DNA of 42,650 bases from Gemmatimonadota bacterium (GTDB lineage Bacteria > Gemmatimonadota > Gemmatimonadetes > Longimicrobiales > Gaopeijiaceae), in assembly GCA_009841165.1 (NCBI GenBank), contig VXMI01000121.1, forward strand, positions 1-42,650. The letters are read 5' to 3'. Shown piece by piece: positions 8,829 through 13,574 of this stretch. Each line of letters opens with the position of its first letter. The first letter of the stretch is position 1. A program made the translations under genes and the position numbers. The notes beneath the pieces are model-generated. The model was not told the origin of the DNA and ran no database searches. It saw only the letters and a list, made by a program, of their open reading frames with translations.

Positions 8829-11504
8829 ATGATGAGAGGAAGCGTTGCGATACGGGTGTGGGTGGGTGTGCTGGGTGCGGTGACGGTGTCTGCGGCGCCT
8901 CCGCCCCTCCCGGGCCAGAGTCCGGAGACCGGTGCGGAAGCATCGAATGCGAGGACGAGGGCGGCTCCGCCGGCCCTGCTGGCGCACCGGGTCACAGAGG
9001 GACCACCGACCATCGACGGTCTGCTGGACGAGAACGACTGGGCGCTCGCCATGGTGGCCGGCGACTTCGTCGTCTTCGAGCCCAACGAGGGCGGGACCCC
9101 GCTGCAGAGGACGGAGGCGCGGGTCCTCTACGGGGACGAGGCCGTGTACGTCGGGATCCGGGCCTTCGACAACTCCCCGGATTCGATCGTGGCGCAGCTT
9201 GCGCGCCGCGACGACCGGCCCCACTCGGACTGGGTGGATGTCGTGATCGACAGCTATCACGACCGGCGCACCGCCTTCCGGTTCGGGGTCAACCCGGCCG
9301 GCGTAAAGTCCGACGGCTACATGTACGACGACACCAACGAAGACGACTCCTGGGACGCGGTGTGGGACGTGGCCACGCGGACCGACGACCGGGGCTGGAC
9401 GGCCGAGTTCCGGATCCCGTACTCCCAGCTCCGATTCGATGGGGCTTCGCGGCAGACGTGGGGAATCAACTTCGCGCGCTTCATCGCGCGGCACATGGAG
9501 CGCAGCCTCTGGGCTCCGATCTCCCGGGGCGACGGCGCGCTTGTGTCGCGGTTCGGAGATCTGGAAGGGCTGCGCGACCTCTCCCCGCCGGCGCGCCTCG
9601 AGGTCCTTCCCTATTCGCTGGTGAGGATGGAGGCCGCGCCGGGAAGCAGTGCGAACCCGTTCTACGATCCGCGGGACTTTTCGTCGACGCTCGGCGCCGA
9701 CGTCAAGTACGGGCTGACCACCGACCTGACCCTCGACGTCACCATCAACCCCGACTTCGGGCAGGTCGAGGCCGACCCCGCGCAGGTGAACCTGACGGCG
9801 TTCGAGACGTTCCTGCCGGAACGGAGGCCGTTCTTCGTCGAAGGTGCGAACATCTTCGCATTCCGCTTCTCGGAAGGCGATGGAGACATGGCCAGCGAGG
9901 GCCTGTTCTACTCCAGGCGCATCGGCAGGGCACCGCGCGGGCGTGTGGCGGACGCACCGTACGCGGATGTGCCGGAGCGCACGCGCATCGTCGGGGCCGC
10001 GAAGCTCTCGGGCAAGACCGGTTCGGGGTGGTCGCTCGGGTTCCTGCACGCGCTCACCGGTCGGGAGACGGCCCTGGCGGCCAATGAGTCCGGTCCTCTC
10101 GGCGACCAGCTGGTGGAACCCTCCGCACAGTACGGCATGGCTCGCGTCAGCCGGGACTTCCGCGACGGCAAGAGCGCGGTCGGCCTCATCTCGACCTGGA
10201 CCATGCGGGACGGTGAAGCGGCCGAAGCCCTCGCGCTCCACAGCGGCGCCTGGACCTTCGGGGCCGACGCCCGACATCGGTTCGGAGAAGACCGCTTCGT
10301 CCTGTCCGGCTACCTGCTCGGCTCCGCCGTCCGAGGCTCGGCGGACGCGATCGCGCGGACTCAGCGGTCTCCCGCCCGGTACTTCCAGCGCCCCGACGCC
10401 GGACACACCGAGTTCGACCCCTCGCGCACGTCGCTGAACGGCTGGGCGGGGTCGCTCGTCCTCGGCAAGATATCCGGCGGCTACTGGCGTTTCGCCACCG
10501 GGGCGATGGCGCGCTCACCCGGATTCGACTCCAACGACCTTGGCTTCATGCGCGAAGCCGACTTCGTGGCTCCCTTCGTCTGGGTCGGATACAACCACTA
10601 CCAGCCAACGGAACACCTTCAGCGCTGGAATCTCAACTTCAACGCCTGGACCCCGTACAGCTTCGGGGGCGAAGCCTTCCAGCGGGGCGCGAACATGAAC
10701 GCGAGCTTCACGCTCAACAACTTCTGGGGCGGCTACCTGGGCGTCATGAGGGAGAGCGCGGGCCTGAGCAACACCTCGCTTCGCGGCGGCGAGATGCTCC
10801 GGATTGACCCGTCCTGGGGCGGCTGGTTCGGACTCTGGTCCGATTCGCGAAAGGCGCTGCAGATCGAGGCCGGCAACAACTGGGGGGTCAGCCCGGAGAC
10901 GGATTCGTGGCGCTACGGGGTCGACGCCAGCCTGAAGTGGAGGCCGTCTTCGCGGGCCACCGTCTCCGCCGGGCCGTTCCTGAACTGGCGGCACGAGGGC
11001 ACCCAGTGGGTCGGCCGTTTCGACCTGGCCGAGCCCCGCTACCTCTTCGCGCGCCTCGAACAGACGACCGCCGGCATTACGGCGAGGGCCGACTGGACCT
11101 TCTCCCCCACTCTGTCGCTTCAGCTGTACGCCCAGCCCTTCGTGTCGGCGGGCGCCTACAGGGAGTTCAAGCAGGTGTCGGATCCGCGTGCGCCGGACTA
11201 CATGGAGCGCTTCGCAGGTGTCCGGGCGCGCCCCGGCGACGGCGGCGAAGTGTCGGCCGACATCGACGGCGACGGCACCGCCGAGTCGTTCCGAAACCCG
11301 GACTTCAACTTCAAGCAGTTTCGCTCGAACGTCGTGCTGCGCTGGGAGTACCTGCCCGGCTCGACTCTCTTCGCGGTCTGGTCGCAGGGGCGCGACCACT
11401 ACGCGCCCGAAGGCACGTTCTCATTCCGCAGCGATCTGGGCACCCTCCTCGACCAGCGCAGCCAGGACGTCTTCATGCTGAAGCTGAGCTACTGGATCGG
11501 CTGA
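8829..11504 (+). CDS. DUF5916 outer-membrane protein with N-terminal CBM9-like domain
   Basis: An 891-residue secreted protein. After a signal peptide (ends near PPLPGQS), residues about 50-235 form a carbohydrate-binding family 9-like sandwich. Its signatures are PTIDGLLDENDWALA, EARVLYGDEAVYVGIRAFD, DWVDVVIDSYHDRRTAFRF and GWTAEFRIPYSQLRF. The remainder is the DUF5916 region: VTINPDFGQVEADPAQVNLTAFETFLPERRPFFVEG is highly typical, followed by alternating aromatic beta strands that end in FMLKLSYWIG, the C-terminal signature of an outer-membrane barrel. The family is common in Gemmatimonadota and Bacteroidota, often near peptidases; its biochemical role is unknown. ATG 8829 is preceded by the strong Shine-Dalgarno GGGGAGGGG; ATG 8832 is an equivalent start. 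It is divergent from the DapF-like gene, with 104 bases between them. Confidence 0.85.
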   Translation: MMRGSVAIRVWVGVLGAVTVSAAPPPLPGQSPETGAEASNARTRAAPPALLAHRVTEGPPTIDGLLDENDWALAMVAGDFVVFEPNEGGTPLQRTEARVLYGDEAVYVGIRAFDNSPDSIVAQLARRDDRPHSDWVDVVIDSYHDRRTAFRFGVNPAGVKSDGYMYDDTNEDDSWDAVWDVATRTDDRGWTAEFRIPYSQLRFDGASRQTWGINFARFIARHMERSLWAPISRGDGALVSRFGDLEGLRDLSPPARLEVLPYSLVRMEAAPGSSANPFYDPRDFSSTLGADVKYGLTTDLTLDVTINPDFGQVEADPAQVNLTAFETFLPERRPFFVEGANIFAFRFSEGDGDMASEGLFYSRRIGRAPRGRVADAPYADVPERTRIVGAAKLSGKTGSGWSLGFLHALTGRETALAANESGPLGDQLVEPSAQYGMARVSRDFRDGKSAVGLISTWTMRDGEAAEALALHSGAWTFGADARHRFGEDRFVLSGYLLGSAVRGSADAIARTQRSPARYFQRPDAGHTEFDPSRTSLNGWAGSLVLGKISGGYWRFATGAMARSPGFDSNDLGFMREADFVAPFVWVGYNHYQPTEHLQRWNLNFNAWTPYSFGGEAFQRGANMNASFTLNNFWGGYLGVMRESAGLSNTSLRGGEMLRIDPSWGGWFGLWSDSRKALQIEAGNNWGVSPETDSWRYGVDASLKWRPSSRATVSAGPFLNWRHEGTQWVGRFDLAEPRYLFARLEQTTAGITARADWTFSPTLSLQLYAQPFVSAGAYREFKQVSDPRAPDYMERFAGVRARPGDGGEVSADIDGDGTAESFRNPDFNFKQFRSNVVLRWEYLPGSTLFAVWSQGRDHYAPEGTFSFRSDLGTLLDQRSQDVFMLKLSYWIG

Positions 11505-11604
11505 GCACCCGAGGGGGATCGCCTGGTGGCCCGGCGGCGGGGGCGCGCGCCAGCTCCCGCCGCCGTTGTCAGCCCCACGGCGGCAACGCATCTTCACCGG
11601 CGTC

Positions 11605-13050
11605 ATGTCCGACTCCATCAGCTACGCCGCCGTTGTCAAGGACGAGTGCGAGACCTGCCACCTGGCGGCGCCCGTCCTCACCGAGATCCACCGGGCCGGC
11701 TATCCGCTCGCCGTGTACTGGCAGGACGATGGCGCGTTCCTGGACCCCGTCCTCGCCGCCGCCGCCGTCGACGACCGCGCGCTCGAGCACTCCTTCCACC
11801 TGGATGTGGAGACCGTCCCCACCCTGATCCGCCGCGAGAACGGTCTGGAAACCGGCCGCACGGCCGGCTGGAGCCGCGACGACTGGCGCGCGCTCACCGG
11901 CATCTCCGCGCTGGGGGCGGGACTGCCGCCCTACCGGCCCGGATGCGGCTCCCGCTCCGTCGAGCCGGGTATCGCGGAGACCTTGCAGGCGCGTTTCGGC
12001 GAAACCGGAATCCGCGCCCGCACCGTCGAGGTCGAGTCCGGCGCCGACGCGGTCGAGGCCTGCTACGACCGCGGCTGGACCGACGGCCTGCCCGTGGTAC
12101 CACCGACCCCCGAGCGCATCCTGCGCATGCTGGGCGGCACGCGCCGCGACCCGCGCGAGGTTATCGGCGAGATCCCTCCCGAACTCGCGCCCTGCACCGT
12201 CGAAAAGGTCGCCATCAACGCCGTCATGGCGGGTTGCCGGCCCGAGTACATGCCGGTCGTGCTGACGGCGCTCGAAGCCGCGCTGGACCCGGGATTCACC
12301 CTGCACGGCGTCACCTGCAGTACCTGCTTTTCGAGCCCGGTGATCATCGTCAACGGCCCCGTCGCAAAGCGCATCGGCATGAACTCCGGACTCAACGCGC
12401 TCGGACAGGGGAACCGGGCCAACGCCACCATCGGCCGCGCGGTCAATCTCGTTGTGCGCAATGTGGGGGGCGGGCGGCCCGGCGAAATCGACCGCGCGAC
12501 GTTGGGTTCTCCGGGCAAGTACACGTTCTGTTTTGCGGAGGATGAGCGCGACGAGGGCTGGGAACCGCTGGCCGTCTCACGCGGAATCGCACCCGGGCGG
12601 AGCGCTGTGACGGTGTTCGCCGGCGACGGAATCCAGGGCCTGACCGACCAGAAGGCGCGCACGCCACGCGAACTCTCCCGCTCCCTGGCGATGGGGCTGC
12701 GGGCGGTGGGGCACCCCAAGCTGTGTGAGTGGGCGCCTGCCGTTCTGGTCCTGTCGCCCGAGCACTATGCGATCTACCGCGAGGCGGGCTGGGACCGCTC
12801 CCGGATCACCGGCGCCCTCCACGACGCGCTGCTGCTCCCGGGCGAGAAGGTGGCTGCGGGCGTCGACGGCGTAGCCGAAGGAATGCCCCCCTCCCGCACG
12901 GGCCAGCTGATCCCCAAGTTCCACCCCGGTGCCCTGCTGCTGGTGCGCGCGGGCGGACCGGCCGGGCTGTTTTCGGCCATCCTCTCGGGCTGGCCGGGAG
13001 GGCGCCTGTTCGAGGAATCGCATCCTGTCACCAGAGAGATCGCCGAATGA
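11605..13050 (+). CDS. Thioredoxin-fold fusion protein, partner of the UGSC selenoprotein
   Basis: A 481-residue cytoplasmic protein without signal peptide. Residues 1 to about 115 look like a thioredoxin fold: a CETC redox motif (Cys15, Cys18) after a beta strand, and a VPT segment like the cis-proline loop of thioredoxins (VETVPTLIRR). From about residue 145 to the end is a large conserved domain I cannot assign to a biochemical function. It has CYDRGWTDGLPVVPPT, PCTVEKVAINAVMAGCRPEY, HGVTCSTC, IIVNGPVAKRIGMNSG, GNRANATIGRAVNLVVRNVGG and GSPGKYTFCFAE. Several cysteines (ProCysThr, GlyCysArg, CysSerThrCys) suggest redox or metal chemistry. The stop overlaps the ATG of the UGSC gene as ATGA, implying coupled translation. 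From memory, proteins with this domain occur next to UGSC genes elsewhere; that needs a search. A TTG at 11566 would add 13 residues. Confidence 0.7.
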   Translation: MSDSISYAAVVKDECETCHLAAPVLTEIHRAGYPLAVYWQDDGAFLDPVLAAAAVDDRALEHSFHLDVETVPTLIRRENGLETGRTAGWSRDDWRALTGISALGAGLPPYRPGCGSRSVEPGIAETLQARFGETGIRARTVEVESGADAVEACYDRGWTDGLPVVPPTPERILRMLGGTRRDPREVIGEIPPELAPCTVEKVAINAVMAGCRPEYMPVVLTALEAALDPGFTLHGVTCSTCFSSPVIIVNGPVAKRIGMNSGLNALGQGNRANATIGRAVNLVVRNVGGGRPGEIDRATLGSPGKYTFCFAEDERDEGWEPLAVSRGIAPGRSAVTVFAGDGIQGLTDQKARTPRELSRSLAMGLRAVGHPKLCEWAPAVLVLSPEHYAIYREAGWDRSRITGALHDALLLPGEKVAAGVDGVAEGMPPSRTGQLIPKFHPGALLLVRAGGPAGLFSAILSGWPGGRLFEESHPVTREIAE

Positions 13051-13574
13051 ACGACTCCACCCTCACCCTGCACGACCCCACCTCCGAGACCGCGCCCGCC
13101 AACCGCCCGCGCTGTGCACCGCCTGCGTCGCTGGACGGCAGGACGGTGGCGCTCTTCGACATCGGCAAGTCGCGCGCCGACGAATTCCTAGACCATCTCG
13201 AAGCGCGGCTCCGCGCCCGGGGAGTCGCCACCGCCCGCTTCGCGAAGCCGACCAATGCCAGGCCCGCCACCACCGCGATCCTGGACGACATCGCCGCGGG
13301 CGCCGACGTCGTCGTGGAGGCGCTCGCCGACTGAGGGTCGTGCGTATCGTGCGGTCTGCACGACATCAGGGCTCTCGACGACCGCGGCCTTCCCGGCCTC
13401 CTGGTCGCCACCAACGCGTTTCGTGACGCGGCCTCCTTCCAGATCCCTTCGCTCGGCTTCGAACCGGAGATCGTGTGGGTGCCGCACCCGGTCCAGAACC
13501 GCCGCCCTCACGAACTCGAGCAGCTGGCGGAGGACGCGCTCGCCGCGGTACTGCGCGGCCTGACCTCTAACTAA
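13047..13574 (+). CDS. UGSC-family selenoprotein (in-frame TGA decoded as selenocysteine)
   Basis: A 175-codon frame containing TGA at 13332-13334 as codon 96, ending at TAA 13572. Around the TGA the protein reads EALAD-U-GSCVSCGLHDIRALDDRG, the signature of the family known as UGSC (seleno)proteins (Sec-Gly-Ser-Cys). The part before the TGA (VALFDIGKSRADEFLDHLEARL... ADVVVEAL) and the part after it (GLPGLLVATNAF... QIPSLGF... WVPHP... ELEQLAEDAL) fit one continuous alpha/beta domain. A SECIS-like hairpin follows the TGA. A conventional annotation would stop at 13334 and lose the active-site half. The ATG overlaps the upstream thioredoxin-fusion stop. The gene converges on a lipoprotein gene only 3 bases away. 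The function is unknown; U96 with Cys99 would form a selenenylsulfide-type redox centre. The selA, selB, selC and selD genes must lie elsewhere. Confidence 0.88.
13335..13364 (+). promoter_or_regulatory. SECIS element immediately after the selenocysteine TGA
   Basis: The bases after TGA 13332-13334 can fold as TCGTGC (13347-13352), loop GGTCT (13353-13357), GCACGA (13358-13363). That is a perfect six-pair stem with a five-base apical loop starting with GG. The loop starts 18 bases after the TGA. Both the GGUCU loop and the 18-base distance are the same as in E. coli fdhF, whose SECIS binds SelB. A second copy of TCGTGC (13338-13343) gives a competing, longer-loop stem. The bulged U seen in fdhF is not obvious here. 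Confidence 0.8.

Follow-up and report, generated by a model that had tools for sequence, protein, structure and literature searches.

The window (the whole 42,650-nucleotide stretch of DNA that was analysed) carries two overlapping genes, P0001 and P0002 (Table 1). The P0001 frame is open from the ATG at 11605 to the TGA at 13048-13050 of the plus strand and encodes 481 residues; a longer form starting from the TTG at 11566 is also possible. The start codon of P0002 (ATG, 13047-13049) has the tetranucleotide ATGA in common with the P0001 stop, as the initial annotation had noticed. With its in-frame TGA read as selenocysteine (Sec), P0002 extends to the TAA at 13572-13574.

The sole close neighbour on the same strand in the window is a DUF5916 gene (8829-11504) that ends 100 nt upstream of P0001. 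This neighbourhood is retained in several close relatives (66-98% identity) and absent from the other Gemmatimonadota family. No operon indicating catabolism was found past the two genes in the window and its relatives. Homologues of P0001 occur in 20 of 150 Gemmatimonadota genomes, 576 candidate stretches were detected in other genomes, and the viral contigs contained no relatives.

Table 1. Features of the P0001-P0002 locus (positions in the window).
Feature	Position	Strand	Evidence
P0001, thioredoxin-fold domain fused to an undescribed large domain	11605..13050	+	open frame, homologues, AF2
Predicted thioredoxin-fold domain, aa 1-104	11605..11916	+	AF2 strand/helix order, Foldseek, VIA, profile
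CETC, C15 and C18 of CxxC	11647..11658	+	both Cys 73/73 in fused homologues
Linker cysteine C114 (PGCGS)	11944..11946	+	invariant 73/73 in Trx-fused proteins
Large domain, about aa 145-481 (~340 aa), undescribed family	12037..13047	+	no database match
C211, large domain	12235..12237	+	37/39 across whole family
C309, large domain	12529..12531	+	34/39 across whole family
ATGA overlap, P0001 stop/UGSC start	13047..13050	+	sequence
UGSC-family predicted selenoprotein P0002, 175 aa	13047..13574	+	PF24696 119.8 bits; AF2 mean pLDDT 93.4
TGA, predicted Sec96	13332..13334	+	in-frame in 19/19 phylum homologues, 74/80 wider loci
C99, candidate resolving cysteine of UxxC	13341..13343	+	48/48 in alignment
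SECIS-like hairpin UCGUGC-GGUCU-GCACGA	13347..13363	+	covariation, folding

Domain organization of P0001

The N-terminal region of P0001 is predicted to adopt a thioredoxin fold. In the AF2 model of the whole protein (74 sequences, mean pLDDT 93.3) this region is matched to thioredoxins by Foldseek with prob 1.0 and by VIA with Z 10.1 and an rmsd of 2.1-2.2 Å over 84-88 residues. The profile of the domain matches a TrxA (P=3e-6), and fits the AhpC/TSA-type N-terminus present in two relatives better than TrxA. The fold, the CxxC motif and the cis-Pro (Pro72, present in 73/73 fused homologues) are those of the Thioredoxin/TlpA/AhpC-TSA proteins, from which the P0001 domain differs by its fusion to the large domain. 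The open frame, the C15/C18 pair and the predicted fold thus agree with the initial annotation, which described a CETC thioredoxin-like domain joined to a large domain. The sampled Trx-fused forms constitute a single clade (100/100) that is distributed over many phyla, which suggests one fusion event followed by horizontal transfer. C114, located in the linker, is a possible relay cysteine.

The whole P0001 sequence has no match in Pfam, NCBIfam or the PDB sequences, and the same result was obtained with the large domain of 39 diverse members. The best-conserved segments of this domain are DGLPVxPPT, NAVMAGC, NGP and RANATIGRA. The initial annotation described it as conserved and as having several cysteines; only C211 and C309 of these are widely kept, whereas C153, C197, C238, C241 and C374 are not, so that the domain has no conserved richness in cysteine. 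The top conserved residues are N, G, R and P.

Several candidate identities of the large domain were rejected. GRDB, aconitase X, CaiB, TrxB and ComA show no profile similarity to it, and the comparison with the GrdG, GrdE-type and PrdA pyruvoyl proproteins gave a prob below 1. Among the listed Foldseek matches of the whole-P0001 model, the only non-Trx one is a class I fumarase (prob 0.57, TM 0.2); the profile comparison with E. coli FumA gave no similarity (prob 0.2). The Foldseek and VIA lists for this model are dominated by matches to the Trx domain, and no new fold is claimed for the large domain. Two tandem large-domain paralogues accompany one UGSC gene in L198, L216, G150:C83 and G151:C1, where the second copy is possibly a heteromeric partner. 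An actinobacterial contig (G341:C272) carries multiple copies of the large domain, with long frames of 664 and 782 aa, in a genome without UGSC over the cut-off.

The UGSC protein and its relation to GrdB/PrdB

P0002 is a member of the Pfam family UGSC (PF24696, 119.8 bits, cut-off 25) and retains the [U/C]GSC motif as UGSCVSC (residues 96-102), while its 112.8 bits with NCBIfam NF041046 lie under the equivalog cut-off of 125. The Pfam scan returned in addition only a sub-threshold 3HCDH_N, and PF07355 was not matched. Since the GOS paper of 2008 (PMC2398784), UGSC proteins have been ranked with the most abundant selenoproteins found in aquatic metagenomes, without a function. The family was still called uncharacterised in 2026, and no functional assignment was found in the open literature.

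The AF2 model of P0002, built from 48 sequences, shows a Rossmann-type sheet in which strand 88-94 leads into a helix, with Sec96 at the helix start. UGSC is therefore predicted to be a Rossmann-type domain. A Trx-like fold, which had been assumed in 2008, was rejected in view of the alternating strands and helices of the model and its Foldseek and VIA matches to flavodoxin, TIR, receiver and LarB-like domains. The top VIA match is to one chain of the complex that activates methyl-CoM reductase (Z 11.5, rmsd 3.5 Å, 133 residues aligned), with a Z only about 1 above those of unrelated matches.

The conserved in-frame TGA, the SECIS-like hairpin and the presence in the source genome of a tRNA-Sec (78 bits, anticodon TCA) together predict that P0002 is a selenoprotein. 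Among 80 wider loci, which are the best P0001 matches and over-sample the fused clade, the codon at the Sec site is TGA in 74, TAG in 2 and TGC in 1. In the other three, one gene ends before the Sec site and two have no UGSC gene in the stretch examined; both genomes of the latter do have a TGA copy. The TAG codon is found in Geodermatophilus and Blastococcus (L112, L094, L211) together with a tRNA-Sec of anticodon CUA, which ARAGORN labels as tRNA-Pyl, and in one genome of this type both UGSC copies are recoded. TAG/CUA recoding that includes UGSC-motif selenoproteins had been reported earlier (PMC5330540). Cys forms of UGSC occur, for instance, in Natrinema, Arthrobacter and Variovorax.

The hairpin has 6 bp and starts 15 nt downstream of the first nucleotide of the Sec codon. 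Since the Rfam SECIS search gave no match, it was assessed by covariation: 98.7% of the cells are paired over 66 sequences, and compensatory changes affect two pairs, one of which joins two third-codon positions. The segment 13332-13380 folds better than its shuffles (z = -2.9).

GrdB, GrdF, GrdH and PrdB (PF07355), the selenoprotein B components of glycine, sarcosine, betaine and D-proline reductases, contain a Sec domain to which UGSC is related. The hhalign comparison of a 77-sequence UGSC alignment with 17 GRDB sequences, whose sources are the phylum and plasmid records with grdF, grdH and prdB annotations, places Sec on Sec with prob 95.3 and P 2.2e-8. The score is 56.4; 200 column permutations never exceeded 25.6, the reversed profile reached 23.0 and unrelated proteins 11-20. 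A shallower first comparison had given prob 63.5, and prob 79 remains when the UxxC columns are masked in both profiles. Both groups have in common a hydrophobic strand, the UxxC, a helix and the next strand, often with an HP motif after it, and the GrdB of another phylum member itself carries the motif UGSC. These profile comparisons establish, at the level of sequence, the homology of UGSC to GrdB/PrdB over a Sec region of roughly 80 residues, a relationship for which no prior description was found in open papers. Unlike GrdB/PrdB, UGSC is a stand-alone domain, its partner is by sequence not a pyruvoyl proprotein, and it is encoded by, among others, Gemmatimonadota, Pseudomonadota, Actinomycetota and haloarchaea. 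Several Gemmatimonadota genera (L186-L194) also have short GRDB/PrdB-like selenoproteins, with a UxxC and some 160-215 codons ahead of the TGA.

Pairing, electron donor and gene neighbourhoods

The initial annotation had viewed the two proteins as a coupled redox module, whose families should co-occur across genomes. This was examined in 695 genomes of three phyla, those of Actinomycetota and Pseudomonadota being searched with the large-domain profile. P0001 homologues are present in 20 of the 150 Gemmatimonadota genomes and UGSC in 19, all of them within the 20. In Actinomycetota the large domain was found in 18 genomes and UGSC over the cut-off in 16, all common to both sets; in Pseudomonadota the four genomes with one family are the four with the other. 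Altogether, 39 genomes contain both families, three the large domain only, none UGSC only (over the cut-off) and 653 neither; the Fisher p of 1e-60 precedes any kinship correction and, the genomes being related, is descriptive. In the remaining Gemmatimonadota genome with P0001 (G098, L026/L031) the homologue, situated at a contig end, breaks off after some 224 codons and UGSC is absent, possibly through joint loss or an assembly gap.

Proximity leads to the same picture. A UGSC gene is contained in 78 of the 80 wider loci, and in 76 of 78 homologous pairs the gap between the two genes ranges from about -19 to +249 nt, with many overlaps. Both gene orders occur in distant loci. UGSC-like and large domains are fused in four proteins at two separate positions of the tree. 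The genomic data strongly indicate that the large domain functions as a unit with UGSC. The GOS paper had described, in its accessible part (PMC2398784), a UGSC protein joined to a conserved domain with conserved Cys (UGSC/Unknown_1). Judged from its description, Unknown_1 is plausibly the large domain of P0001; the links to thioredoxin, thioredoxin reductase and GrdB presented here are not reported in that part of the paper.

Three UGSC-large-domain fusions (L137, L199, L170) have MGTS in place of U/CGSC and represent a non-redox offshoot of the family. They belong to Vibrio, Sporomusa and G294, and the Vibrio and Sporomusa copies adjoin aconitase X and DUF126. In one Acidimicrobiales genome (L122/L208) the UGSC and large-domain genes are 7 kb apart, and methyltransferase-like and glycosyltransferase-like genes form an inserted block in the interval.

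The loci without a fused thioredoxin point to a probable source of electrons. The Arthrobacter operon has the order trxB-trxA-large domain-UGSC(Cys), and trxB is inside the cluster in Variovorax and Roseovarius. Scored at every locus with 3 kb on both sides, a trxB-like gene is found within 3 kb in seven of 19 loci without fused Trx, being absent from the other 12, and in none of the 59 Trx-fused loci (p 1.9e-5, without kinship correction). The fused protein of Variovorax boronicumulans retains CGSC, and a TrxB-like gene is its neighbour, whereas the Vibrio and Sporomusa fusions have lost Sec/Cys and have no TrxB neighbour. Such a distribution, small as the numbers are, is expected if TrxB serves the Sec/Cys. 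The genomic evidence strongly indicates that electrons would pass from NADPH to thioredoxin reductase and then to a thioredoxin that is either fused or encoded next door.

Consequently, the coupled two-protein redox module stands, sustained by the near-exceptionless co-occurrence and the predicted Trx fold, and the suggested dithiol donor, supplying a Sec/Cys acceptor, is compatible with the loci that have a separate neighbouring trxB and, once, trxA. To call the system complete with two proteins was an overstatement: a thioredoxin reductase is required upstream, and some operons add a second large-domain paralogue.

The neighbours of the pair in several lineages include LysR regulators, TRAP/TTT/ABC uptake systems, CaiB CoA-transferases, acyl-CoA dehydrogenases, thiolases and SDR proteins. 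These genes suggest organic-acid catabolism in several lineages, and no substrate shared by the lineages emerged from the neighbourhoods.

Proposed reaction and alternative explanations

The relation to the Sec domain of GrdB/PrdB, missed in the initial annotation, suggests a chemistry for the pair. In glycine reductase, NADPH supplies the electrons, which reach GrdA/GrdB by way of thioredoxin reductase and thioredoxin (PMC3091704). For D-proline reductase, the proposed mechanism is an attack of the PrdB Sec on the alpha carbon, with the resulting selenoether resolved by a PrdB Cys (PMC10298544). The thioredoxin and thioredoxin reductase donors are a feature of glycine reductase, and for the UGSC pair they constitute a genomic link only. 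The pair is likely a thioredoxin-driven reductase. By analogy with GrdB, its Sec would break a bond of the substrate reductively while the large domain holds that substrate; the reading as a whole is given about an even chance.

According to this scheme, the large domain would bind or activate a small molecule, probably an organic acid, as the substrate. The selenolate of Sec96 would then attack the substrate and reductively cleave a carbon-heteroatom bond (C-N, C-S, C-O or C-halogen). C99 would resolve the intermediate to form a Se-S bond, which the CxxC (C15/C18), perhaps via C114, would reduce. In several lineages the product would enter CoA-ester catabolism. The activating carbonyl of the Grd/Prd systems was not identified in the pair, because the large domain is unlike the proproteins. 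Hence, the substrate would be activated by another group, unless its leaving group requires no activation, and the amine-activating part of the Grd/Prd mechanism appears, from sequence, to be missing or replaced. The Vibrio, Sporomusa and G294 fusions lack Sec/Cys and therefore cannot perform the Sec chemistry.

A broader proposal, made tentatively and with less confidence, is that the pair may represent a new class of Sec-dependent reductases. It would combine a Sec domain of GrdB/PrdB type with an unrelated substrate-binding subunit that is not a pyruvoyl protein, be fed by thioredoxin, and reductively cleave an organic acid for CoA-dependent catabolism in mostly non-clostridial, often aerobic bacteria and archaea. 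Such a class would extend glycine/proline-reductase-type chemistry past the amino-acid-fermenting anaerobes. Given its near-obligate partner, an electron donor that can be named and its homology to enzymes of known chemistry, UGSC becomes a testable enzyme.

The combination of Sec, UxxC and Trx is also the usual layout of thiol peroxidases and antioxidant repair enzymes, in which UGSC would reduce a peroxide or an oxidised thiol or methionine with the fused thioredoxin as reductant. The GOS paper placed UGSC with the Trx-like oxidoreductases (PMC2398784), and the related GrdB is reportedly peroxidase-active, according to a reference title in PMC3091704. However, the domain predicted here is Rossmann-type and not Trx-like, and a peroxidase has no need for an obligate 340-aa partner or for adjoining uptake transporters, LysR and CoA-transferases. 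This role is judged unlikely, with some weight left to it.

About as unlikely is a catabolic enzyme with non-redox chemistry, the large domain being an isomerase or lyase that UGSC/Trx would only protect or regulate by redox state. The absence of Cys from the top conserved residues of the large domain is in its favor, as are the three fused UGSC-like variants that keep the fold with Sec/Cys lost, two of them next to aconitase X. On the other hand, almost every two-gene pair in the fused clade retains Sec despite the cost of selenium, and one family changed its codon to TAG along with the tRNA-Sec anticodon; both observations argue for a catalytic Sec.

The preferred thioredoxin-driven reductase could also act as a dehalogenase or an organo-sulfur-cleaving enzyme, with the same layout and a halide, sulfite or thiol as leaving group. 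A dehalogenase-like alpha/beta hydrolase gene precedes the pair in Acidimicrobiales, and a ComA (phosphosulfolactate synthase) gene is part of the Arthrobacter operon, but each is limited to one lineage and no consistent partner exists, which makes this version improbable.

Finally, the transfer of selenium or sulfur onto a cofactor or a tRNA, raised in the initial annotation, found no supporting evidence and is very improbable: rhodanese, desulfurase and selenouridine genes are not consistently linked to the pair, the selA and/or selB genes that adjoin it in 12 loci are sufficiently explained by the need for selenoprotein synthesis, and Cys versions exist, in Natrinema, Arthrobacter and Variovorax among others.
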